The translations under genes were made by a program, and so were the position numbers. A DNA stretch of 15,362 nucleotides from an uncultured Lachnospiraceae bacterium (GTDB taxonomy: Bacteria > Bacillota_A > Clostridia > Lachnospirales > Lachnospiraceae), in assembly GCA_902780985.1 (NCBI GenBank), contig CACZHN010000089.1:1-15362 (forward strand), written 5' to 3'. The notes under the pieces are model-generated. The model made no database searches and was not told the origin of the DNA. It was given only the letters and a program-made list of their open reading frames with translations. Shown here piece after piece: positions 1-12,656 of this stretch (the first letter of the stretch is position 1; each line of letters opens with the position of its first letter).

Positions 1-155
1 CGGAGTATCTCTGCGACAGGATCGTAATGCTGAACAAGGGTAAGACCATCTGTGATGCGTCGCCGGAGGAACTCAAAAAGCAAAACGATGTATCCAATAT
101 GAGGGATGCATTTTACCGGATAATAGAAAGCGAGGGTATAAGCTATGAGGTATAA
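1..155 (+). CDS. ABC transporter ATP-binding protein, C-terminal end (partial)
   Basis: An open frame enters from the left edge (first full codon at base 3) and stops with TAA at 153-155, giving the last 50 residues of a protein. The visible start, EYLCDRIVMLNKGKTI, matches the stretch after the H-loop in ABC ATPases, where 'E..CDRI..l.kG' is typical, followed by a short helical C-terminus. The stop lies 8 bases inside the next gene, an ABC-2 type permease (11-base overlap), so the two are almost certainly translationally coupled subunits of one exporter. By family this subunit hydrolyses ATP on the cytoplasmic face and powers the NatB-like permease. The Walker motifs lie outside the window, so the assignment rests on this short stretch plus context. 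Confidence 0.8.
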   Translation, partial: EYLCDRIVMLNKGKTICDASPEELKKQNDVSNMRDAFYRIIESEGISYEV

Positions 156-2223
156 AGTAGTTAAGACCCTTATAAAGAAAGAGCTTCTGGATGTCATCAG
201 GGATAAGAAGGCGGTCATCATGATGCTCATCGTTCCGCTGGTGGTCTATCCGCTGATATTTTTCGGTACCATGGCAGTGATGACGGCTATTCAGACCGGA
301 ATGGAAGAGCATGAGTATAAAGTTGTCATCGAGCCTATAGAGGGTCCGGAATACGATTCGATACTGGCGGCCATAGATGAACATAATAAACCGTCGAAAG
401 ACGATAGCTCGGAAAAGACGGATCAGCTGAAATCCGTAAGAAGCGATGAAGAATGGGATTACGATAAGGCCTATGCAGCTCTTCAGAAGGAAGAGATAGA
501 TGCATTTGTCAGAATCTGGTCACAGGATATTGACGGAAGACCGGTTTATCAGATCGTTTATGTTTCGTCCATAACCAATTCGTCTTACGCGGCGGACATT
601 CTGAAAAGCGTTCTGAATAAGATGAATAAAGATGAGTCCGAGAGACTCATAAGCGAAATGGGCATCAAGCCTGAGCTGGTGCTTACGCCGCTGGTCATTG
701 AGAATAAAGACGTTGCCAGCAAGGAACAGACCACCGGAAATCTTCTGGGTATGATCCTTCCTATGCTGCTTATCATAAGTCTTCTCATGGGAACCATGTA
801 TCCGGCCATAGATACCACTGCCGGAGAGAAGGAAAGAGGTACCCTTGAGACCATGCTTACCCTGCCTGTTACCAACAGGGAGATCATATTCGGTAAGTTC
901 GTAACGGTTGCGATTATAGGAGTTGTATCGGCGCTTCTCAACCTGCTTTCCATGGCACTCATGGGCGTATACATGATAAAGCTTATCGGCGGTCTGGGAA
1001 TGGCGGTAAATACCGTGGACTTCGGAAGATTCATTCCGGCCATCCTGGTTACGATCCTTTCGGTGCTGGTATTCGCACTTTTCATAAGTGCACTGACCAT
1101 GTGCATAGCCGCATTTGCCAAGTCCTATAAGGAAGCCAATAACTATATAACACCTATGACTCTGGTAGTCATGCTTACGGGATACATCGCATTTATCCCG
1201 AATATCGAACTGGACAGCAAGATGGCACTGGTTCCCGTAGCCAACATATGCCTGCTGATAAAGAACATACTTAACTTTAAGTATGATATGGAAATCGTGA
1301 TGCTGGTTCTTCTCAGCAACGTGGTTTACGCTATGCTGGCGGTGCTTTTCCTGGGAAGAGTTTATAACAGTGAAGGAATCCTCTTCGACGAGGGTCGTTC
1401 CGGAGTTCAGCTTTTCGAAAAGCGCAGCAACATGAAAAAGGGCGGCGTTCCTACCGTCGGAGATGCCTGGTTCTTACTGTGCATAGTCTTCATGGCTGTT
1501 ATATATCTGGGAAGCATAATGCAGCTGGAGTGGGGCTTTACCGGTGTTGCCGGAACCCAGATCATCATACTGCTGCTGCCGCTGCTTTTCGTGATCTATA
1601 CGAAGAGAAGCATAAAAGAAACCTACAGCTTTAAGAAGCCTGCGGTCACATCGGTGCTGGGCGGAGTGGTACTTGTTCTGGGAGTTCTCCTTCTGGGAAT
1701 ACTGCTTACGGTATTTACTTCGATGCTGTTCCCGAACGACGCGGAACTGGCGGGAGAGAGTATTGACAGTACTCTTACGGGACACGGATTCCTGCTTACG
1801 CTTTTCGTAGCGGCACTTATGCCGGCTATATGCGAGGAAATGATGTTCAGAGGTTTTGTTCTGTCATCATTCAGAAAAAGATATAAGATTGTCACATCCA
1901 TACTTCTGGTGGCGGCAGTCTTCGGTATATATCATATGAGTATAGTGCGATTCTTCACCACGGCTCTGCTGGGTGCCGCACTGGCGCTTACGGTTTACTA
2001 TGCGGGAAGCATATTCCCGGCTATGTTGATGCATTTCTGTAATAACGGAATAGCTGTACTTCAGATGTATTATCCGGAGTTCTTTATAAAGTATGTTCCG
2101 ATCCTCGGCGAGGAGACTCTCAGTATTTCATCGACTATAATACTATTTTTACTTGGTACGGTACTGACTGCTGCCGGAATTCTTCTGCTCAGAAGAAGCC
2201 ACAGAGGAAAGGAAGCTAAATGA
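145..2223 (+). CDS. ABC-2 permease (NatB-like) fused to CPBP intramembrane protease
   Basis: A 692-residue membrane protein of two parts. The N-terminal half has one membrane helix (about residues 23-45), a large soluble loop to about residue 200 and then a group of helices (about 200-410), the layout of NatB-type ABC-2 permeases, which with their ATPase export sodium ions or other substrates. The C-terminal half (about 430-690) is a second helical bundle with CPBP (CAAX protease/bacteriocin-processing, Abi) motifs: EEMMFR with E564, E565 and R569; FGIYH with H597; and HFCNN with H630 and N634. The proposed glutamate and histidine catalytic or metal residues are therefore all present. This permease/CPBP fusion is, to my knowledge, a recognised clostridial architecture. 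The start overlaps the ATPase gene; the stop overlaps the lysozyme start (ATGA). The transported substrate cannot be read from the sequence. Confidence 0.9.
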   Translation: MRYKVVKTLIKKELLDVIRDKKAVIMMLIVPLVVYPLIFFGTMAVMTAIQTGMEEHEYKVVIEPIEGPEYDSILAAIDEHNKPSKDDSSEKTDQLKSVRSDEEWDYDKAYAALQKEEIDAFVRIWSQDIDGRPVYQIVYVSSITNSSYAADILKSVLNKMNKDESERLISEMGIKPELVLTPLVIENKDVASKEQTTGNLLGMILPMLLIISLLMGTMYPAIDTTAGEKERGTLETMLTLPVTNREIIFGKFVTVAIIGVVSALLNLLSMALMGVYMIKLIGGLGMAVNTVDFGRFIPAILVTILSVLVFALFISALTMCIAAFAKSYKEANNYITPMTLVVMLTGYIAFIPNIELDSKMALVPVANICLLIKNILNFKYDMEIVMLVLLSNVVYAMLAVLFLGRVYNSEGILFDEGRSGVQLFEKRSNMKKGGVPTVGDAWFLLCIVFMAVIYLGSIMQLEWGFTGVAGTQIIILLLPLLFVIYTKRSIKETYSFKKPAVTSVLGGVVLVLGVLLLGILLTVFTSMLFPNDAELAGESIDSTLTGHGFLLTLFVAALMPAICEEMMFRGFVLSSFRKRYKIVTSILLVAAVFGIYHMSIVRFFTTALLGAALALTVYYAGSIFPAMLMHFCNNGIAVLQMYYPEFFIKYVPILGEETLSISSTIILFLLGTVLTAAGILLLRRSHRGKEAK

Positions 2224-3200
2224 ATTCCAAAAACGACAAGATAAAACGACTGCTGATCATATGGGTTGTATTTCTCATGTTCCTGGTATGCACCATCGTT
2301 CTTCTGGTGAAGTCCATCATGTCCGAGATAAAAAATGCGGAGTTCCCGAAGCATGTATATATGTCGGACGAACTTGACGATGTGATACCTTTCGATGCGG
2401 ATTACTCCATCAGGGACATGATCAAAGACAACTATGTGAAGTATCTTCATCAGGCATATATAGTTCTGGGTACATACCCGGACTGCAGACTGGTAAAGAT
2501 CAGCGCAAATGTAGAGAGAAATGATTTCAACTGGAAAGAAGAGTTCTATTGTCCGGAAGGCGAGCTCTACTGGAAGAGATATAAGGACGGAGTGCCGGAA
2601 GGCAGGATAGCCATTGATGTTTCCGAGTACCAGAACAATATTGACTGGGAAGGCGTGAAGCAGGCAGGTGTTGAAGTTGCCATAGTCAGAGCCGGCTTCA
2701 GAGGTTACGGAAGCTCAGCAAAACTTGTGGCCGATGTGAACTTCGACCAGAACATGCAGGGAGCCGCATCCGTGGGAATAGAGACCGGAGTTTACTTCTT
2801 CTCCGAGGCCATAAACCGCGAGGAAGGTGAAGAGGAAGCGAGATTCGTTCTGGATATGGTTCAGGGGTACAACGTTACCCAGCCGATAATCATAGATACG
2901 GAATACATTTACGATACGGAAGGCGTAAGAGCCAATGATATATCCGTAGAGGACAGGACCGCCGCTGTTGTGGGATTCTGTGAGACAATAAAAGCGGCCG
3001 GGTATACACCGATGATATACGCCAGCCGCGATCAGTTCATATTCAATATGGACATAGATGCCATAGGTGATTACGAGTTCTGGCTCGCATGCTATGACAC
3101 GCCTAACTTCCCGTATCATACCGAGGGATATCAGTATTCTCCTTCGGGACTTATGAGCGGAATTGAAGGAAATGTAGATCTGGATGTATGGATGAGATAA
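2220..3200 (+). CDS. Membrane-anchored GH25 lysozyme (N-acetylmuramidase)
   Basis: A 326-residue protein with a single hydrophobic helix at about residues 10-31 after a basic N-terminus (KNDKIKR), so a signal anchor placing the rest outside the membrane. Residues 32-125 form a region I do not recognise. From about 128 to the end it is a glycoside hydrolase family 25 domain: IAIDVSEYQ (D133), AIVRAGFRGYG, GVYFFSEA and the catalytic pair in IIIDTEY (D226, E228). GH25 enzymes cut the beta-1,4 bond between N-acetylmuramic acid and N-acetylglucosamine in peptidoglycan. The start overlaps the permease stop by 4 bases (ATGA), so it is probably co-translated with the transporter genes. That suggests a local wall-remodelling role, not a phage endolysin: no holin or phage gene is nearby and the protein is anchored. 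The stop abuts the convergent amylase gene. Confidence 0.9.
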   Translation: MNSKNDKIKRLLIIWVVFLMFLVCTIVLLVKSIMSEIKNAEFPKHVYMSDELDDVIPFDADYSIRDMIKDNYVKYLHQAYIVLGTYPDCRLVKISANVERNDFNWKEEFYCPEGELYWKRYKDGVPEGRIAIDVSEYQNNIDWEGVKQAGVEVAIVRAGFRGYGSSAKLVADVNFDQNMQGAASVGIETGVYFFSEAINREEGEEEARFVLDMVQGYNVTQPIIIDTEYIYDTEGVRANDISVEDRTAAVVGFCETIKAAGYTPMIYASRDQFIFNMDIDAIGDYEFWLACYDTPNFPYHTEGYQYSPSGLMSGIEGNVDLDVWMR

Positions 3201-4511
3201 TTATCTCTCCATCTTCCAGACATATGATGTATAAGGAGCAAGCTCGGAGCCGCCGCCGAAGTCGTGCTTGGTACCGGTAAGCAGTTCGTCTGCCATGCCG
3301 CATCCCGCATCGAAATGCGCGGTGAAAGGCTGATCCGATGCGTTGATGGCAATCATGATCCTTTCGTCATCAACCCTGCGCTCGAAGATACACTGATGAT
3401 TTGTAAGAACGACAGACCTGAATGAACCGTAGTTCAGTGCTCTGCTGTTCTTTTTTATTTCCGCAAGGCGGGCTATATGGTCTGTAAGGCTGTTCCACTC
3501 CGGTGCCTCGAAGCATGGACGGAGAGCCGGATCTCCTTCTTCCTTACGGGCTTCCGCACCCCATTCGCTTCCGTAGTAAACGCTCGGGAATCCCGGCATT
3601 CCGAAAGCCAGAGTATATATAAGCGGAAGATGATTCTTGTTGGAAAGAATACTGGCAACTCTTGTAACATCATGGTTATCCACGAAGGACATGAGGTGCA
3701 TGTGCTTGTAACGGCACCAGTCTTCCGGACCGAACTGCTGCATGAGAGAGTGGATAATCTCGAACATGTTCATGCAGTTGAAGCTGGAGAACAGTCCTTT
3801 GTAGCATGCGTAGTTGGTACAGCTGTGAAGCATTCCGTCATTTACGAACATGGCATAATCGCCGTGAAGCAGCTCGCCCAGGAGCAGGAATTCAGGCTTG
3901 ATGTCGTTGGCCAGTCCGCGAAGTCTGTGGATGAAGTCTCTGTCCAGGCAGTAAGCTACATCCAGTCTCAGACCGTCTATATCGAAGTAATCAACCCAGT
4001 AACGGATTTTGTCGAAGATATGTTCCACCACATCGTTGTTGCGGAGGTTGAGCTTGACCAGGTCGTAGTTGCCTTCCCAGCCTTCGTACCAGAAGCCGTC
4101 GTTGTAATTGGAATTTCCGTCAAAGGAAAGATGAAACCAGTCCTTATAAGGAGAGTCCCATTTCTTCTCCTGAACATCCCTGAATGCCCAGAAGCCTCTG
4201 CCTACATGATTGAATACGCCGTCCAGAACAACTTTGATGCCGGCTTCGTGAAGGGCGTCCACAACCTTCTTGAAGTCCTCGTTTGTTCCGAGACGCTTAT
4301 CTATAAGTCCGTAATCGCGGGTGTTGTATCCATGAGTGTCGGATTCGAAAACAGGAGAAAAGTAGATGGCATTTGCGCCCAGTTTCTTGATGTGAGGTAT
4401 CCAGTCGATGACTTTGAGAATCCTTGATTCAAGTATTCCGTCATTCTCGAAAGGAGCACCAGTAAAGCCCAGAGGGTAGATCTGATAAAAGACCGATTCT
4501 TCAAACCACAT
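3201..4511 (-). CDS. GH13 alpha-amylase family glycosyl hydrolase, cytoplasmic
   Basis: A 436-residue protein without a signal peptide, starting at an ATG preceded by a near-perfect ribosome binding site (AAGGAGGA, complement of 4519-4526). It shows the GH13 conserved regions in order: region I VVLDGVFNHVG (about residues 95-105), region II GLRLDVAY with nucleophile D184, region III LLGELLHG with acid/base E213, and region IV FVDNHD with D281. A short beta-rich C-terminal domain follows (INASDQPFTAHF). The family hydrolyses or rearranges alpha-glucans. At 436 residues and cytoplasmic it probably acts on imported maltodextrins or cyclodextrins, but the exact specificity (amylase, neopullulanase-like, glucosidase) cannot be fixed here. 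It is transcribed divergently from pgi, which would accept the sugar phosphate made from released glucose; this functional link is inference. Its stop is immediately next to the lysozyme stop. Confidence 0.9.
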   Translation of the reverse strand: MWFEESVFYQIYPLGFTGAPFENDGILESRILKVIDWIPHIKKLGANAIYFSPVFESDTHGYNTRDYGLIDKRLGTNEDFKKVVDALHEAGIKVVLDGVFNHVGRGFWAFRDVQEKKWDSPYKDWFHLSFDGNSNYNDGFWYEGWEGNYDLVKLNLRNNDVVEHIFDKIRYWVDYFDIDGLRLDVAYCLDRDFIHRLRGLANDIKPEFLLLGELLHGDYAMFVNDGMLHSCTNYACYKGLFSSFNCMNMFEIIHSLMQQFGPEDWCRYKHMHLMSFVDNHDVTRVASILSNKNHLPLIYTLAFGMPGFPSVYYGSEWGAEARKEEGDPALRPCFEAPEWNSLTDHIARLAEIKKNSRALNYGSFRSVVLTNHQCIFERRVDDERIMIAINASDQPFTAHFDAGCGMADELLTGTKHDFGGGSELAPYTSYVWKMER

Positions 4512-4533
4512 ATTTCCGTCCTCCTTAAAATGC

Positions 4534-4564
4534 AGTATATTTTGCGTTGCAAAGACACCTTCAA
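4534..4564 (-). promoter_or_regulatory. Candidate promoter for the GH13 gene
   Basis: On the minus strand a -10-like TATACT (complement of 4534-4539) lies about 22 bases upstream of the gene start, with a -35-like TTGAAG (complement of 4559-4564) 19 bases further up. The spacing is longer than ideal and the -35 is a partial match, so this is a modest candidate. A second TATACT (complement of 4566-4571) lacks a good -35. Confidence 0.35.
4541..4553. promoter_or_regulatory. Palindrome in the amylase promoter spacer, possible operator
   Basis: TTTGC-GTT-GCAAA is a perfect 5+3+5 inverted repeat. It lies between the candidate -10 and -35 of the GH13 gene, where a bound repressor would block RNA polymerase. 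The TTGC/GCAA half sites recall operators of LacI/GalR-family sugar regulators such as MalR, though the half-site order and spacing differ from the classic GCAAACGTTTGC. No regulator gene is in the window, so the assignment is inference. Confidence 0.35.
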
Positions 4565-4613
4565 CAGTATACCAAATATGACAGCAAATCGCTATAAAAA
4601 CCGAACTTTTGCC

Positions 4614-4642
4614 TTGTAATGAAAGACTCGATTTGCTACAAT
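4614..4642 (+). promoter_or_regulatory. Promoter of pgi (sigma-A type)
   Basis: TTGTAA at 4614-4619 and TACAAT at 4637-4642 are separated by exactly 17 bases, matching four and five of six positions of the vegetative consensus. Transcription would start near 4649, leaving a leader of about 50 bases before the pgi ATG. The leader ends with a good ribosome binding site (AAGGAG, about 4687-4692). Confidence 0.65.
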
Positions 4643-4700
4643 TTAGGGTAGTGTTTTTTGGGGATTACAGAGGGAATTATATATAAAAGGAGATTTAGTT

Positions 4701-6056
4701 ATGGCACAAAAGGTATCATTCAGTTTTGAGAATGCTTCATTCATGGCAGATGATGCATCGGTTGCAGCTATCAAGGACAGAGTAACAGCTGCAAGAAACA
4801 CACTTGTTGAGAGAACAGGTGCGGGAAATGATTTCCTGGGTTGGATCGATCTTCCGATTGATTACGACAAGGAAGAGTTCGACAGAATTAAGAAGGCAGC
4901 AGCTAAGATTCAGAGTGATTCAGACGTACTTCTCGTTATCGGTATCGGCGGATCATATCTCGGCGCAAGAGCAGCTATCGAGGCTCTTCGTCACAGCTTC
5001 TATAACATGGTAGATAAGTCAATCCGTAAGACACCTGAGATTTATTACTGCGGTAATAACCTCAGCTCAACATACATCTGCGACCTCGTTGATGTTATCG
5101 GCGACAGAGATTTCTCTATAAATGTTATCTCTAAGTCAGGTACAACAACAGAGTGTTCCGTTGCTTTCCGTCTCTTCAAGGAAATGCTTGAGAAGAAGTA
5201 CGGCAAGGCAGAAGCAGCTAAGCGTATCTATGCTACAACAGATAAGGCACGCGGGGCTCTTAAGACTCTTTCAAACGAAGAGGGTTATGAGACATTCGTA
5301 GTTCCTGATGATGTAGGAGGAAGATATTCCGTTCTTACAGCAGTAGGACTTCTTCCGATTGCAGCTTCAGGTGCAGACCTTGATGCTCTTATGGCAGGTG
5401 CTGCAAAGGCACGTGAGTACTGCTTAAACAATGATTTTGATTCAAACGACGCACTTAAGTACGTTGCATACAGAAACGTTCTTCATGAAAAGGGACTCGG
5501 AATGGAGATCCTCGGAAACTTCGAGCCGTCACTTCATTACATCACAGAGTGGTGGAAGCAGCTCTACGGAGAAAGCGAAGGCAAGGACGGCAAGGGTATC
5601 TTCCCTGCAGGTGTTGATTTCACAACAGATCTTCACTCACTGGGACAGTTCATTCAGGAAGGTACAAAGAATCATTTCGAGACATTCCTCAATGTTAAGA
5701 ACCCACGCAGAAGCGTAGTTATGCAGGAAGAGGCAGTTGATCTTGACGGACTTAACTATCTTACAGGAAAGACTGTAGACTTCATCAATAAGTGTGCTAT
5801 GAACGGAACAATCCTTGCACATGTAGACGGACAGGTTCCTAACATCCGTATAGATATGGAAGAGATCAGCGAGGAGACAGTTGGTGAGCTCTTCTACATG
5901 TTCGAGTTTGCATGCGGCGTAAGCGGTTATGTTCTCGGAGTTAACCCATTCAATCAGCCTGGTGTTGAAAGCTACAAGAAGAACATGTTTGCTCTTCTCG
6001 GAAAGCCGGGTTATGAAGAAATGACAGCAGCTCTCAGAGAGAGACTCGGAGAGTAA
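4701..6056 (+). CDS. pgi: Glucose-6-phosphate isomerase
   Basis: A 451-residue enzyme, the usual length of the short Firmicute form (about 450). It interconverts glucose 6-phosphate and fructose 6-phosphate in glycolysis and gluconeogenesis, in the cytoplasm. Visible motifs: [10 protein letters not shown] (from G81) of the first SIS domain; ISKSGTTTE (K145-E151), which binds the sugar phosphate; the family signature VGGRYSV (G206-S210); [11 protein letters not shown] with the catalytic-region glutamate E291; and SLGQFIQEG. The start has a clear AAGGAG site 8 bases upstream. It has its own promoter and is closed by a strong terminator, so it is monocistronic. Codon use differs strikingly from all neighbours: ACA for Thr, GCA/GCT for Ala and CTT/CTC for Leu are preferred, whereas neighbours use ACC/ACG, GCG/GCC and CTG freely. 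This fits selection for high expression better than recent transfer. Confidence 0.97.
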
Positions 6057-6076
6057 TCAGTAATACAGGGCGAAAC

Positions 6077-6109
6077 ACGGGGACGGGGGTTGACCCCCGT
6101 CCCTGTTTT
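6077..6109 (+). terminator. Intrinsic terminator after pgi
   Basis: GGGACGGGGG (6080-6089) and CCCCCGTCCC (6094-6103) form a perfect 10-bp stem around a TTGA loop. It extends by three more pairs including one G-T (6077-6079 with 6104-6106) and is followed by TTTT (6106-6109). The stem is very stable and the T run short. It separates pgi from the following operon, whose first start codon is only 26 bases downstream. Confidence 0.85.
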
Positions 6110-6134
6110 AAGTTCCCGAAAATTTGGAGGAAAT

Positions 6135-7295
6135 ATGATAGGAGATACCTTCGAACTTATAGCACCGTGCCATTTCGGCCTTGAAGCGGTGTTGAAGCGA
6201 GAGATTCAGAATCTCGGATATGAGATCACTTCCGTGGAGGACGGTCGAGTTACCTTTCTTGCGGGAGCGGACGGAATACCGAGAGCCAATATAAATATCA
6301 GGACAGCCGAGAGAATCCTTCTCAAGTGCGGAAGCTTCAGAGCAAAGACATTCGATGAGCTTTTTGAAGGCACCAGAGCCATTAACTGGGAGAGAGTTCT
6401 TCCGAGAGATGCAAAGTTCTGGGTAACAAAAGCCACAACGAACAAGTCGGCTCTTTTTGCTGCGTCTTCGATACAGTCCATCGTGAAGAAGGCTATGGTA
6501 GACAGAATGAGTTCCGTCTATCACGTAAACCGCTTCGCAGAGGACGGTGACGAATATCCTGTAAGAGTTTTCATCATGAAGGACATGGTCACCATAGGAC
6601 TTGATACATCGGGTGTTTCGCTTCATAAGAGAGGTTACAGAAAGCTGGTAGGTAAGGCTCCTATTTCCGAAACACTGGCCTCAGCCCTTATCATGCTCAC
6701 ACCTTGGAGGGAAGACCGTATACTGGTAGATCCGTTTTCGGGCAGTGGTACATTTCCTATTGAAGCGGCTCTTATCGGAGCCAATATCGCACCGGGTGTG
6801 AACAGAGATTTTACGGCATGTACCTGGGAGAAGCTTATATCCAAGAAGCTTTGGTACGAGGCATATGACGAGGCGAGAAGCCTTGAGAAAAGAGATGTGA
6901 AGATGAATATCCAGGGCTACGACTTAGACCCTGAGATCGTCAAGGTGGCAAGGACAAATGCGGCCGATGCCGGCGTGGAAGAGTATATTCATTTTCAGCA
7001 GAGAGACGTGAAGGACCTTAGAAATCCGAAGCCATACGGCTTTGTGATCACCAACCCTCCATACGGCGAAAGACTTGAGGAGAAGGAAGCGCTTCCGGCG
7101 CTTTACAGAACCCTGGGAGAAGCTTATGCCGGGCTGGATAAATGGTCCATGTATATAATTACCTCTTATGAGGATACCGAGAAGTACATCGGCAGAAAGG
7201 CCGATAAAAACAGGAAGATCTATAACGGTATGATCCAGGCGAGATTCTACTCGTTCATGGGTCCTAAGCCGCCGCGTAACGATTCTTCCGTGTAA
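6135..7295 (+). CDS. THUMP-domain class I SAM-dependent RNA methyltransferase (YpsC/RlmL-like)
   Basis: A 386-residue protein whose start is set by GGAGG at 6126-6130; an in-frame TTG at 6090 would lie inside the pgi terminator and is rejected. The N-terminal ~170 residues (ELIAPCHFGLEAVLKREI...) are a ferredoxin-like/THUMP RNA-binding module. The C-terminal half is a Rossmann methyltransferase with DPFSGSGTFPIEAA (D199-A212), where S-adenosylmethionine and the target base are handled, and the NPPY motif (N307-Y310) typical of base N-methylation. This is the COG0116 family (B. subtilis YpsC; N-terminal part of E. coli RlmL, which makes m2G in 23S rRNA). The exact target is not readable here. 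No obvious promoter fits between the pgi terminator and this gene, so its transcription must begin inside pgi or by read-through. It heads the long operon that follows. Confidence 0.9.
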   Translation: MIGDTFELIAPCHFGLEAVLKREIQNLGYEITSVEDGRVTFLAGADGIPRANINIRTAERILLKCGSFRAKTFDELFEGTRAINWERVLPRDAKFWVTKATTNKSALFAASSIQSIVKKAMVDRMSSVYHVNRFAEDGDEYPVRVFIMKDMVTIGLDTSGVSLHKRGYRKLVGKAPISETLASALIMLTPWREDRILVDPFSGSGTFPIEAALIGANIAPGVNRDFTACTWEKLISKKLWYEAYDEARSLEKRDVKMNIQGYDLDPEIVKVARTNAADAGVEEYIHFQQRDVKDLRNPKPYGFVITNPPYGERLEEKEALPALYRTLGEAYAGLDKWSMYIITSYEDTEKYIGRKADKNRKIYNGMIQARFYSFMGPKPPRNDSSV

Positions 7296-7311
7296 CCGGA
7301 AGGGAAGGTTA

Positions 7312-9042
7312 ATGAGAACCAGAATTGTCGTATTCTTTTTATTAATAATACTGACACTAGCAGGGGCGTATGTCATATTTACACCGCATAAAGCGGGTAT
7401 CGGCAGAAATTCGGAGTTCGACGGTGCCGTGAACAGCCTGTCGGAGAAGATCGTGGAAAGCGCCGAAGAAAGCGGATTCGACCTCATGGTCGATGATAAG
7501 AGCCTGTCGGGATTCGATTATCAGGTTAAGATCGGACCGGGCATGGAGATAAGCTGTTCAGAGCAGTTCCTGGAAGACATCATGGGATGTTCGGTAAGTG
7601 TTTTTCCTACGGGAAAGGTTACCGTTGAAAGAAAAGATGTTCATCTGGAGTATAACGAGGGCAGCAATGTCATCGTTATGAAAAAGGGCGCTGATACCAA
7701 GAGGATAGAGTTCAGTCCGGATGCCAAGGTTACCGAAGACGGAGGAGTATTTCTTCCGGTGGGAGAAGTGCTGGGCAATCTCGGATATAGTGCCGAATAC
7801 ATTTACAGCAGAAGAGCTGTGGATTTTAAATGCATCGATGACGGTAAGTATCTCCCTGAGTCCTATGATATGAGGACCACGGGAAGAGTAACGCCGGTAA
7901 GAGATCAGGGCGTGTACGGTACATGCTGGGCATTTGCGTCACTGGGAGCGCTGGAGACCATACTTATGCCGGAAGAGAATAATGTGTATTCCGTCGACCA
8001 TATGTCGATGAACAACAACTTCTCTCTGGAACTCAGCGAAGGCGGAGAGCACGGCATCAGTATATCTTATCTTGCTTCATGGCTCGGACCTGTTATGGAC
8101 AGGGACGATCCGTACGGAGACGGAGAGACCAATACGAATCTCGAAGCCGTAAAGCATCTTGAGGAAGCCATCATCATGAAAGAGAGAAATGATGAGACCA
8201 TCAAGAGCGCCATCTATAAGTACGGCGGAGTGGAAACCTCCATGTATCTCGGAATGACTTACGGTGCAAATGATTCGGAGTTCTATAATGCGGAGACCGG
8301 AAGCTACTACTACGACGGAGACGAGATGCCGAACCATGCGGTGGTACTTGTAGGCTGGGATGATAACTATCCGAAGGAAAGATTCAACAAGCAGCCGTCA
8401 CGGAACGGAGCCTATATCTGTAAGAACAGCTGGGGCGAGACCTTCGGCGAAAGCGGTTACTTCTATGTGTCTTACGATGATACGAATCTTTGCCAGGAGA
8501 CCATAGTTTATTCCAAGCTGGTGGAGCCGAATGATTTCGACAACATTTATCAGACTGATATGCTGGGCTGGATAGGTCAGATGGGATTCGGTCAGGATTC
8601 CGCTTACTTTGCGAACTGCTACAAGGCAGAGGGTAAGGAGAATCTTGCTGCGGTTTCTTTCTATGCCACAGGACCGGATACATCGTTTTCCGTATATATA
8701 GTGAGACATTTCTCCGATAAGAAATCCCTGAACGACAGAGTTATGGTAGGTCAGGGACAGACCAGATACGCGGGATATTATACCGTGAAGTTTGATGACG
8801 AGATACCTCTGGACGAGGGCGAGAAGTTCGCGGTCATCGTGAGTATACAGACTCCGGGAAGCGAGCGTCCTATAGCGATTGAATGTGATGCGGGCGAAAG
8901 AACCGCTGATATAGATCTCAGAGACGGTGAAGGATACATGAGCCTTTACGGCGAGGTATGGCACAGAGCGGAGAATTCCGACTGCAACATATGTCTGAAA
9001 GCCTTTACCAGAACAAGAGAATCACGAAGTGAAGGAGAATAA
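7312..9042 (+). CDS. Surface C1-family (papain-like) cysteine peptidase with lectin-like domain
   Basis: A 576-residue protein with an N-terminal signal or anchor helix (about residues 5-23). Residues about 70-175 resemble the copper amine oxidase N-terminal (stalk) domain: short beta-rich repeats ending in FLPVGEVLGNLGYSAEY. The peptidase domain (about 180-400) opens with LPESYDMRTTGRVTPVRDQG and carries oxyanion Q199, nucleophile C205 in GTCWAFA, histidine H342 in NHAVVLVGWDD and asparagine N372 in KNSWGE, so the triad is complete. Residues about 415-570 (MLGWIGQMGFGQDSAYFAN...) resemble the lectin-like domain often attached to clostridial surface C1 peptidases. It likely acts at the cell surface on proteins or peptides; the substrate is unknown. 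It follows the methyltransferase by 16 bases and precedes rdgB by one base, an unexpected place for a surface protease within a housekeeping run. Confidence 0.9.
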   Translation: MRTRIVVFFLLIILTLAGAYVIFTPHKAGIGRNSEFDGAVNSLSEKIVESAEESGFDLMVDDKSLSGFDYQVKIGPGMEISCSEQFLEDIMGCSVSVFPTGKVTVERKDVHLEYNEGSNVIVMKKGADTKRIEFSPDAKVTEDGGVFLPVGEVLGNLGYSAEYIYSRRAVDFKCIDDGKYLPESYDMRTTGRVTPVRDQGVYGTCWAFASLGALETILMPEENNVYSVDHMSMNNNFSLELSEGGEHGISISYLASWLGPVMDRDDPYGDGETNTNLEAVKHLEEAIIMKERNDETIKSAIYKYGGVETSMYLGMTYGANDSEFYNAETGSYYYDGDEMPNHAVVLVGWDDNYPKERFNKQPSRNGAYICKNSWGETFGESGYFYVSYDDTNLCQETIVYSKLVEPNDFDNIYQTDMLGWIGQMGFGQDSAYFANCYKAEGKENLAAVSFYATGPDTSFSVYIVRHFSDKKSLNDRVMVGQGQTRYAGYYTVKFDDEIPLDEGEKFAVIVSIQTPGSERPIAIECDAGERTADIDLRDGEGYMSLYGEVWHRAENSDCNICLKAFTRTRESRSEGE

Positions 9043-9043
9043 T

Positions 9044-9523
9044 ATGAAACTGATCTTTGCAACAGGAAATGAAAATAAAATGAGAGAGATCCGCGAGATC
9101 CTTGCGGGACGCGGATATGAGATCCTGTCCATGAAGGAAGCGGGAATAGACGTTGATGTGGTTGAGGACGGAAAGACATTTGCGGAGAACGCACTTATCA
9201 AGGCCAGAGCCATATCAAAGATCGCAGGCGAACTGGTGCTTGCGGACGATTCGGGTCTGGAGATAGACGCACTGGGCGGCGAGCCGGGTATCTACTCCGC
9301 AAGATACATGGGATATGACACATCTTACACAGAGAAGAACAACAACCTTATAAGCCGCCTTGAAGGCGTGCCTGATGAGGAAAGAACAGCAAGATTTGTA
9401 TGCGCAATGGCTGCCGTATTCCCTGACGGACGTGAGGAGACGGTAGTGGGAACCATGGAAGGCCGCATCGGATATGAGATCGCGGGAGAGAACGGTTTCG
9501 GTTACGATTCTGATAATGAGTGA
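9044..9523 (+). CDS. rdgB: XTP/dITP pyrophosphatase RdgB, C-terminally truncated
   Basis: The protein starts at ATG 9044 with GAAGGAG just upstream; a GTG at 9029 overlaps the peptidase end and is less likely. RdgB/HAM1 enzymes hydrolyse non-canonical purine triphosphates (XTP, dITP, ITP) to monophosphates, keeping them out of nucleic acids. Visible: FATGNENKMREI (T7-K12, triphosphate binding), ENALIKA, LADDSGLEIDALGGEPGIYSARY (D68/D69 region) and GENGFGYD (to D155). The family normally continues with P-[IL]-F..., a conserved lysine and the SHRG-A motif that recognises the base, to about 200 residues. Here the protein ends four residues after FGYD (S-D-N-E, 159 residues). The missing ~45 residues suggest an inactive or severely impaired enzyme. 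The lost 3' end is replaced directly by the start of the next gene, indicating an out-of-frame deletion or an assembly error. Confidence 0.85.
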   Translation: MKLIFATGNENKMREIREILAGRGYEILSMKEAGIDVDVVEDGKTFAENALIKARAISKIAGELVLADDSGLEIDALGGEPGIYSARYMGYDTSYTEKNNNLISRLEGVPDEERTARFVCAMAAVFPDGREETVVGTMEGRIGYEIAGENGFGYDSDNE

Positions 9524-9992
9524 TTCTCACGGTATGAACAGATATGCGGCGCAGGTTCTCGAACAGGAGAAACCGGATATGCTTATCCACTGCGGCGATG
9601 TTCAGGGTTCCGAAACGGAGCTTGAAAAGATGGCGGGTTCGCCGGCCACACCGTGCGTTTTCGTAAAAGGCAATAATGACTGGGATTCAAGGAACCCGTA
9701 CACAAGAACCTTTAAGCTGAAGGGCCATAAGTTTCTTGTGACACACGGCCATACTCACGGAGTATACAGCAATGCGGGAGTTCAGAATCTGATATATCTG
9801 GCTCAGGAAAATGAATGCGACATCGTATGCTTCGGTCATACCCATGCGGTATTCGACGAAGAGGTAAACGGTGTGAGACTGCTGAACCCGGGAAGCATAT
9901 CGCTTCCGAGAGGCACTAAGAAAAAATCGTATATGATCATGACTCTGGAAGAGGACGGAAAATATACGGTCGAGAAGAGGTTTTTAGTATGA
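9516..9992 (+). CDS. YfcE/YsnB-type metallophosphoesterase, 5' end altered
   Basis: A two-metal phosphodiesterase of the YfcE/MJ0936 family. From ATG 9516 it has 158 residues and all metal ligands: SDSHG (D3, H5), CGDVQG (D28), KGNNDW (N53, D55), THGHTHG (H77), FGHTH (H108, H110) and NPGS. The family normally begins with M-K-x-L-x-I-S-D-[ST]-H-G; here the strand residues T-I-L-I that should precede MSDSHG are encoded upstream in the same frame but without their own start codon. They lie inside the rdgB end, in a different frame from rdgB. No ribosome binding site precedes 9516, so expression would need coupling to the rdgB stop (8-base overlap). Alternatively it starts at ATG 9474, preceded by GGAAGG at 9457-9462, giving 172 residues with a foreign N-terminus. 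The stop overlaps the next start (ATGA). Confidence 0.85.
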   Translation: MSDSHGMNRYAAQVLEQEKPDMLIHCGDVQGSETELEKMAGSPATPCVFVKGNNDWDSRNPYTRTFKLKGHKFLVTHGHTHGVYSNAGVQNLIYLAQENECDIVCFGHTHAVFDEEVNGVRLLNPGSISLPRGTKKKSYMIMTLEEDGKYTVEKRFLV

Positions 9993-11665
9993 AAAAGGGC
10001 GATATTATAGAGGGTATCATTACAGATTATAACTTTCCGAATAAGGGAAGTTTCATGTATCATTCGGTGGCTCCGGACGGAACACCTCTCGGTGATGACA
10101 GAAAGATAATAGTCAAGAATGCACTGCCGGGAAGCAAGGTCCGCGTAAGGATCATCAAGAAGAAGACCGGCTATGCCGAGGGAACTGTTCTTGATGTGAT
10201 CGAAAAGTCACCTCTTGAGACAAAGAAACCGATCTGTAATCATTTCTACAGCTGCGGAGGATGTACCTATCAGACCGTTGCTTATACCAATCAGCTTAAG
10301 ATGAAAGAGGATATGGTAAAGAAACTTCTGAAGCCTGTAGTGAACTTCGGAGGAGATGGTGCAAAGACCGAGCTGTCTCAGATTAAATGGGACGGAATAG
10401 TGGGCTCTCCGGATCAGTTCAGATACAGAAACAAGATGGAGTTTACCTTCGGAGATGAGGAAAAGTACGGCCCTCTCACCCTGGGACTTCACAGAAGATT
10501 TTCGAATCATGACATCCTGAGCATAGATTCCTGCGGTATTGTCAGCCCTACATGGAACGACATTCTGAAGTTCACACAGGATTTCTACAGAAAACTGGGA
10601 GTTCCTTATTATAACAAGTATACACACACGGGAGTTCTGCGTAATCTGGTGATCAGACAGTCTGCATCGGGCGGCGGAATCCTTGTGAATCTGGTAACCA
10701 CAACCCATCACAGCATAGACGAATCCACGAGAAATACTCCGTGGCATGAGAAGAGAAGCGAGACGGTTGACGAGCTGCATCTTCCTGAATATGTAGCGGG
10801 ACTTCTTTCACTGGGTGAGCCGAAGTCGGTGGGACTTGATGCATTTACTTCCCATGGTTATCAGAAGGCAAATACAAAGAAAAAGATCGTAAGAGACAAG
10901 TGGGGAAAACTCCAGAGAGTAAACGGAAGTTTTGAAGATAACGTTGGCTCCGGAGAGTTCGAGTCACTGTCTTACTATAACCGAATCGCAGGCGTTCTTT
11001 ACACAGAGTGCGACACCCTTGCGGATGCCATAATCCCTGATTCGGTAACACTTCTCTACGGAGAGGATTATCTGATGGAAGAGGTACTGGGGCTGAAGTT
11101 TAAGATATCTCCGTTCTCCTTCTTCCAGACCAACACAAAGGGAGCGGAGCTGCTTTACTCGAAGGTAAGAGAGTATGCACTGGAAGCACTGGCAAAGAAT
11201 GCCGGCAGCGATGATACCTCTGATGTGAAAACGGGAGTCATCTATGACCTTTACAGCGGAACCGGAACCATAGCACAGCTCATGTCACCGGTTGCGGATA
11301 AGGTATACGGAATTGAGATCATAGAAGAAGCTGTGGAAGCAGCCAAGGAAAATGCAAAGCTGAATAAACTCACCAACTGCGAATTCATCGCGGGAGATGT
11401 ATTAAAGAAGCTGGATGAACTGGAAGAAAAGCCTGATCTTATAATACTGGATCCGCCGAGAGACGGACTTAATCCGAAGGCCCTTACAAAGATACTGGCC
11501 TACGGCGTAAAGAATATAGTATATGTCAGCTGCAAGCCGACTTCTCTTGCAAGAGATCTGGAGATATTCGAAGCAAACGGATATGAGCCGGTGCGCGGAT
11601 GCTGCTGTGATATGTTCCCGAATACGGTACATGTGGAGACGGTTGTCCTTCTTGAGCAAAAATAA
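9989..11665 (+). CDS. rlmD: RlmD/TrmA-family m5U RNA methyltransferase
   Basis: A 558-residue SAM-dependent enzyme of the COG2265 family, which methylates C5 of uridine in 23S rRNA (or tRNA). Domains in order: an N-terminal TRAM-like RNA-binding barrel (about 1-70); an iron-sulfur cysteine set C83-x5-C89-x2-C92 with C182 as the likely fourth ligand; a central region; and the methyltransferase core with YDLYSGTGT (Y419-T427), ILDPPRDGL, nucleophile C515 in YVSCKP and base E550 in HVET. All catalytic parts are intact. It is about 100 residues longer than most RlmD proteins (about 450); the excess is a lysine-rich stretch at about residues 240-330. Whether the target is U1939, U747 or both (as for B. 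subtilis RlmCD) cannot be read. The start overlaps the phosphoesterase stop by 4 bases. Confidence 0.9.
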   Translation: MKKGDIIEGIITDYNFPNKGSFMYHSVAPDGTPLGDDRKIIVKNALPGSKVRVRIIKKKTGYAEGTVLDVIEKSPLETKKPICNHFYSCGGCTYQTVAYTNQLKMKEDMVKKLLKPVVNFGGDGAKTELSQIKWDGIVGSPDQFRYRNKMEFTFGDEEKYGPLTLGLHRRFSNHDILSIDSCGIVSPTWNDILKFTQDFYRKLGVPYYNKYTHTGVLRNLVIRQSASGGGILVNLVTTTHHSIDESTRNTPWHEKRSETVDELHLPEYVAGLLSLGEPKSVGLDAFTSHGYQKANTKKKIVRDKWGKLQRVNGSFEDNVGSGEFESLSYYNRIAGVLYTECDTLADAIIPDSVTLLYGEDYLMEEVLGLKFKISPFSFFQTNTKGAELLYSKVREYALEALAKNAGSDDTSDVKTGVIYDLYSGTGTIAQLMSPVADKVYGIEIIEEAVEAAKENAKLNKLTNCEFIAGDVLKKLDELEEKPDLIILDPPRDGLNPKALTKILAYGVKNIVYVSCKPTSLARDLEIFEANGYEPVRGCCCDMFPNTVHVETVVLLEQK

Positions 11666-11680
11666 AAATAGGGACATAAA

Positions 11681-11731
11681 ATGTATAACGAATATCTGGA
11701 AAAAACAAAGTATGTGGATTACGACGATTGA
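11681..11731 (+). pseudogene. 5' remnant of the transglutaminase-like gene
   Basis: A 16-codon ORF (MYNEYLEKTKYVDYDD) beginning 15 bases after the rlmD stop, with a modest AGGGA site upstream. From memory of the family, transglutaminase-like proteins of the type encoded just downstream begin with a similar 'YL....yIDy' segment, then about 20-25 residues before the F-V-R-D-E-I segment. Here the reading frame ends at TGA 11729-11731 and the rest of the protein continues in the +1 frame. This fits the true N-terminus cut off by a small out-of-frame deletion near 11727-11730. Confidence 0.55.
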
Positions 11732-12656
11732 GAATACATTTCTTTTCGTAAGAGATGAGATTAAACATTCCTGGGATGCTCAGGATAAAAGAGTAACGGT
11801 ATCGGCAAGCGATACCTTGAGAGAAGGCGTGGGAATCTGCTGGGCGAAAGCGAATCTTCTGGCGGCTCTTCTCAGAGCTAACGGAATTCCCGCAGGTTTC
11901 AGCTATCAGCGCCTTACGTTGGGAGAAACACCGGAAAGCGGTTACTGTATCCATGCGATGAATACGATTTATATTTCGAGTATGGATAAATGGATACGCC
12001 TTGACGCGAGAGGAAATAAGGAAGGCATAAATGCGCAGTTTTCAACCGAGGAAGAGATACTTGCGTTTTATATTCGCTGCGAAGGAGAAGAAGATTATCA
12101 CGATAATCATTCCTATCCGGATCAGGGACTTATGAAAGTCCTTGAAGAAAGCACGGATGCCATTGATATGTATCTGCATCATTTACCGGATCGATTATCA
12201 TACAGTGTCGATTATAAAACAGCGACTTTGGATGATATGGACCTTATGATGAGCAGCCGTCTGGAGATGCTGAGAGTTGTTAATAATCTTGATCTTTCCT
12301 ATAAGTACAGCGAAGAGATAATCGAGAACAGCCGGAAGTACTTTGAAGAAGGAGAACAGACAACGGTTCTGGCAATGGACGGAGAAAAAGTTATCGGCTG
12401 CGCAACCATGAGTTATATAACCATTATGCCGACATTTTCTCATCCTACGGGAAAAAGGGCACATCTTATGAATGTGTATACCATGAAGGAGTGGCAGAGA
12501 AGAGGCATCGCTAAGAAAATGGTACTTATGCTGATAGAGGATGCAAAGCGCCGCGGGGCTACGGAAGTCAGTCTGGATGCTACGGAAGAGGGACGTCCGC
12601 TTTACTATAACGTGGGATTTAAGGATTCCGACGAATGTATGGTTTTAGCCCTTTAA
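11712..12656 (+). CDS. Transglutaminase-like protein fused to GNAT acetyltransferase, N-terminus disrupted
   Basis: From ATG 11712 the protein has 314 residues. Residues about 5-150 are a transglutaminase-like cysteine-protease-fold domain: FVRDEIKHSW, then catalytic C43 in GVGICWAK, H81 in YCIHAMN and D98 in IRLDARG, a complete triad. Residues about 168-314 are a GNAT N-acetyltransferase domain with the acetyl-CoA loop QRRGIA (Q262-A267) and a C-terminal LDATEEGRPLYYNVGF. The two halves are in one frame, so the fusion is real or at least uninterrupted. The natural start appears to be ATG 11681 in another frame (see the remnant entry); ATG 11712 has only a weak site (GGAAAA). The open frame extends upstream to 11523, but that part lies in rlmD and is meaningless. 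Substrates of both domains are unknown. Confidence 0.8.
   Translation: MWITTIENTFLFVRDEIKHSWDAQDKRVTVSASDTLREGVGICWAKANLLAALLRANGIPAGFSYQRLTLGETPESGYCIHAMNTIYISSMDKWIRLDARGNKEGINAQFSTEEEILAFYIRCEGEEDYHDNHSYPDQGLMKVLEESTDAIDMYLHHLPDRLSYSVDYKTATLDDMDLMMSSRLEMLRVVNNLDLSYKYSEEIIENSRKYFEEGEQTTVLAMDGEKVIGCATMSYITIMPTFSHPTGKRAHLMNVYTMKEWQRRGIAKKMVLMLIEDAKRRGATEVSLDATEEGRPLYYNVGFKDSDECMVLAL

Follow-up and report, generated by a model that had tools for sequence, protein, structure and literature searches.

The window analysed here, a stretch of DNA of 15,362 bases from a Lachnospiraceae-type bacterium of gut or rumen, contains a gene for an XTP/dITP diphosphatase, rdgB, that runs into a gene for a YfcE-type phosphoesterase (Table 1). 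The rdgB frame opens at ATG 9044, which has a 6-base anti-SD match at a spacing of 6, and ends at TGA 9521-9523, giving 159 amino acids with the C-terminal end ...GENGFGYDSDNE. Codons 1 to 155 are intact, codon 155 being GAT at 9506-9508, and are followed by S-D-N-E and the stop. We found that the protein aligns with profile positions 1 to 151 of 186 of PF01725 at 176.7 bits, above the Pfam cut-off of 22.5, and so has the HAM1 domain. With the equivalog profile TIGR00042 it reached 141.7 bits, just below the cut-off of 145.35. Residues 1 to 155 are identical (155/155) to those of P0001, a public protein of 192 amino acids, which continues for 37 more residues, SHRG included. The C-terminal SHR motif, which determines base specificity, is absent from the RdgB of the window and present in P0001. 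P0001 can be aligned almost end to end, including the tail that the window lacks, with relatives of RdgB whose structures are solved (E. coli 1k7k/2pyu and others).

The phosphoesterase is read in the +1 frame relative to rdgB, from ATG 9474 to a stop that ends at 9992, and shares 50 bases (9474-9523) with the rdgB frame. We found that the 172-residue product of this frame scores 119.6 bits (cut-off 56.25) with TIGR00040 (yfcE) over positions 3 to 153 of 158, and thus carries the full YfcE/YsnB domain. The first strand, the SDSHG metal motif, GNND, THGH, and GHTH are all found in it. Residues 12 to 172 are identical (161/161) to residues 3 to 163 of P0121, a public protein of 163 amino acids that begins M-K-I-L-I-M-S-D-S-H-G. 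The M-K of P0121 is gone from the window, where the sequence in front of ATT is part of rdgB, and the phosphoesterase has neither its own start codon nor its own ribosome-binding site. Residues 1 to 11 of the 172-residue frame are encoded by rdgB DNA. The first-pass annotation had described an RdgB that follows its family to GENGFGYD and then ends as S-D-N-E-stop without SHRG, sharing its last bases with a phosphoesterase that lacks a start and a ribosome-binding site. Our reading of the frames, the TIGR00040 match, and the two public proteins agree with this description. Its figure of about 45 lost RdgB residues was too high, as the comparison with P0001 gives 37.

Table 1. Features at the rdgB-phosphoesterase junction, in positions of the window
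Feature	Position	Strand	Evidence
rdgB (XTP/dITP diphosphatase, HAM1 family), truncated	9044..9523	+	PF01725, TIGR00042, identity with P0001
Weak ribosome-binding-like GGAAGG before ATG 9474 (4-base AAGG match, spacing 11)	9457..9462	+	anti-SD comparison
YfcE-type phosphoesterase ORF, 172 aa	9474..9992	+	TIGR00040, PF12850, identity with P0121
Deletion junction: rdgB codon 155 GAT meets ATT of the phosphoesterase I3 codon	9506..9509	+	comparison with G010, G033, G026, G060, and G055
Alternative ATG, five bases 5' of the rdgB stop	9516..9518	+	sequence; putative start

We compared the locus with those of relatives. Of the species found, the five closest (G010, G033, G026, G060, and G055) each have a whole rdgB and a separate, whole phosphoesterase gene. 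All 111 relative loci that we fetched, which represent 107 distinct rdgB sequences because four pairs are one and the same contig, carry GYDP...SHR, and 37 to 49 residues follow GYD. A phosphoesterase match lies downstream on the same strand in 101 of the 111 loci, within 150 bases in 99 of them; one of these matches (L034) is partial. Of the 10 loci without such a match, 6 have fewer than 500 bases left, and 4 (L041, L057, L071, and L097) have room downstream of rdgB and no phosphoesterase match by the test used. Where the two genes overlap in relatives, an offset of -4 is common, and offsets of -20 to -26 occur in a few. The spacers of relatives are short apart from that of G055 (L087), where about 350 bases of repetitive-looking, AT-rich DNA separate the two genes. 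The ysnA-ysnB genes of Bacillus subtilis, named in the first-pass annotation, form a corresponding pair.

We also searched genomes. Within the genus to which the rumen MAG of locus L001 belongs, the RdgB query matches 55 of 61 genomes, and all the places listed have an open frame of at least 193 amino acids; 54 of the 55 matching genomes have one rdgB place, and G053 has two, so that a single copy is usual in this genus. In a second genus the query matches 29 of 42 genomes, and the only listed frames shorter than 193 amino acids are one of 82 in G099, where the match starts at base 6 of the contig, and one of 178 that is a second hit in G091. By the first-pass annotation, relatives that share the compact arrangement of the window would speak against its reading. 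We found none that does: none of the 111 loci is without the SHR tail, and the junction pattern, allowing up to 3 mismatches, occurs in 0 of the 61 genomes of the genus. The exact 26-base junction had no match in viral_contigs. The best 120 public protein matches include no separate entry for the product of 159 or that of 172 amino acids, although these entries are cluster representatives that could hide members; in this search, P0121 is credited with 13 contigs. One public protein, P0014, an RdgB of 169 amino acids from a contig of 1,935 bases, also goes wrong just past FGYDP and ends in ...PIFYLPEYERPQQR. Its fault resembles a frameshift located some residues later and differs from the junction in the window.

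The window resembles the intact Lachnospiraceae rdgB-yfcE pair of G010, G033, and others in its genes, their order and strand, and the near-identical bodies of the two proteins. In contrast, the intact pair keeps the SHR tail and the start of the phosphoesterase, both of which the window has lost, on our reading by deletion. At the base level, the window is shorter by 166 bases than G010, 168 than G033, 192 than G026, 144 than G060, and 475 than G055, with the two shared bases counted in; global alignment likewise gave 166 and 168 missing bases against G010 and G033. These counts refer to the five closest species found, as the identical alleles were compared as proteins only, and the lost stretch was probably 140 to 200 bases long. 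The phosphoesterase lost two codons (M-K, judged by P0121) and its upstream spacer. Bases 9507-9508 (AT) agree with both flanks, and 9506 (G) may do so as well. The match on the phosphoesterase side begins at 9507, or at 9506 where the lysine codon of the relative is AAG (3 of the 5) rather than AAA (2 of the 5). The join therefore has 2 or 3 shared bases, since the flank matches overlap from 9507 or 9506 to 9508. This anatomy is beyond chance, because all 155 residues on the left are the same as in P0001, all 161 on the right are the same as in P0121, and the switch falls within 2 to 3 bases. What these comparisons show directly is which alleles are intact, where the junction lies, and which parts are missing.

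The first-pass annotation had proposed that one deletion took the rdgB tail and the phosphoesterase start, and P0001, P0121, and the five closest species all agree with this. According to this model, a single simple deletion in a strain of a Lachnospiraceae ("Eubacterium sp."-like) species would have removed the last 37 codons of rdgB, its stop, the spacer with the ribosome-binding site of the phosphoesterase, and the first two phosphoesterase codons. It would have fused the genes out of frame through the shared GAT/AT of 2 to 3 bases. Shared bases of this number are often seen at the joins of spontaneous deletions. We infer that the deletion lies in the DNA of the sequenced strain and is very recent. 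By judgement, and not by computation, we consider it probable that this is a real deletion in the strain. Two findings speak against it: the junction occurs in no second record among viral_contigs and the 61 genomes of the genus, and the intact form with identical protein exists elsewhere.

The body of rdgB bears on the age of the event. Against G010, the RdgB body differs at 2 of 155 residues, with 64 further codons differing synonymously (dN 0.008, dS 1.28); against G033, 3 residues and 69 codons differ. The RdgB body shows no decay and no relaxed selection. Because a long-dead gene would show decay, the event would either be very recent or not exist in the living genome, and the absence of relaxed selection fits a very recent event and an artefact equally well. 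Our comparison of indels covered positions 1-11665 (G010) and about 4767-11665 (G033) of the window. Over 11,610 bases aligned with G010 and 6,866 aligned with G033, the rdgB junction is the only frame-breaking indel in the middle of a gene. The remaining indels with a length that three does not divide fall in spacers or no more than about 21 bases from a gene end or an alignment end, and so the record is otherwise clean.

The main alternative is an artefact of assembly or library preparation, in which both genes are whole in the cell and the intervening stretch was lost through a chimeric read, a polymerase jump, or a scaffold join over a tiny overlap. PCR or amplification chimeras and scaffold joins leave equally short shared bases. 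Several of the findings above fit such an event: the existence of intact alleles that are identical at 155/155 and 161/161 residues, the conservation of both genes in the relatives examined, the truncated rdgB that shows no decay, and the lack of the junction in any other record among viral_contigs and the 61 genomes of the genus. The window may also be a metagenome contig, a setting in which such joins occur. However, assemblers normally make a false join only where a repeat has the length of their k-mer, and at most 3 bases are shared here. Repeat collapse is an unlikely source of the join because 2 to 3 shared bases are far too short for an assembler k-mer. In addition, the remainder of the compared 11.6 kb holds no comparable error. 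Again by judgement, we regard an artefact as a possible explanation but place it behind a real deletion.

Two further readings give the overlap a purpose. One is that a short working RdgB and an overlapping phosphoesterase evolved under selection, and short overlaps of the two genes in relatives and a +1 frame that is open back to an ATG are consistent with it. Against this, every fetched locus keeps the SHR tail and no genome of the genus has the junction, and in the human homologue the SHR pocket is essential (PMC5075207). We consider such a compact arrangement very improbable. The other, that a ribosomal frameshift in the 50-base overlap yields a purposeful RdgB-YfcE fusion, is scarcely credible, since the overlap by eye holds no slippery motif, relatives have two separate genes, and no frameshift could restore the missing RdgB tail. 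We rejected both programmed frameshifting and an evolved short RdgB.

We then considered what the RdgB of the window could still do. In human ITPA, residues 176-178 (the SHR signature) build the base-specificity pocket, and replacement of Arg178 by Ala or Lys abolishes complementation in E. coli (PMC5075207). The same source classes a stop at codon 151 as most likely nonfunctional. That variant, p.Trp151Stop (c.452G>A), belongs to the same family and, like the window RdgB, is a C-terminal truncation that removes the SHR pocket; it is a point nonsense mutation, whereas the event in the window is a deletion that also hits a neighboring gene. By analogy with the human enzyme, in which the lost SHR tail is essential, the RdgB of the window is almost certainly inactive. 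The cell would then be without ITP/XTP cleaning. This loss should be survivable, since E. coli rdgB mutants are viable (PMC9016069), although rdgB is synthetically lethal with recA (PMC1173102). The cell would tolerate the loss because the enzyme is nonessential in bacteria whose DNA repair works.

The phosphoesterase may still be produced from ATG 9474. The only nearby in-frame ATGs are this one (AAGG, spacing 11) and the one at 9516 (GGT, spacing 13). A start at 9474 would retain the first strand and the metal motif behind 11 foreign residues. The ATG at 9516 could be reached by translational coupling, but the first beta-strand (K-I-L-I) would go. If the phosphoesterase is made at all, it would come from ATG 9474, with 11 altered N-terminal residues, or to a lesser degree by coupling from ATG 9516. 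The most specific form of the model, a real, recent, and fixed deletion that left rdgB as a leader, a working phosphoesterase translated from ATG 9474, and a cell without ITP/XTP house-cleaning, we hold to be rather unlikely as a whole.

The junction looks like a commonplace deletion that breaks a gene, or like a fault of assembly; it is no new system and no new kind of gene. If the deletion is real, it provides a small natural null of rdgB and shows how a deletion can create overlapping genes in one step. If it is an artefact, it warns that a conserved gene pair may be falsely joined in a single record. Either way, what is known of the RdgB and phosphoesterase enzymes is unchanged.

We made further observations elsewhere in the window. 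A GH25 lysozyme gene (2220-3200, + strand) and an amylase gene (3201-4511, - strand) are convergent with a 0-base spacer, and the palindrome GAGATAATTATCTC lies at 3198-3203. G010 has a hairpin-rich spacer of 102 bases at this convergence. Among 30 fetched amylase loci, 10 have a convergent GH25 neighbor, whereas in 17 the best GH25 match is on the opposite strand and in 3 no GH25 match is within reach; the spacers of the 10 convergent loci are 5, 12, 23, 33, 102, 185, 236, 243, 244, and 352 bases long. We considered the 0-base spacer as a sign of a systematic assembly fault and dropped the idea, as short spacers occur naturally. Directly 5' of rdgB, positions 7312-9042 encode a peptidase of the papain family (C1) that carries a lectin-like domain at its C-terminus. 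At 145-2223, an ABC-2 type permease is fused with a CAAX/Rce1-like membrane protease domain in one protein of 692 amino acids. At 11523-12656, one ORF encodes a transglutaminase-core domain and, after it, a GNAT acetyltransferase domain; this ORF overlaps the end of the RNA methyltransferase gene that precedes it, and its true start is probably 3' of 11523.
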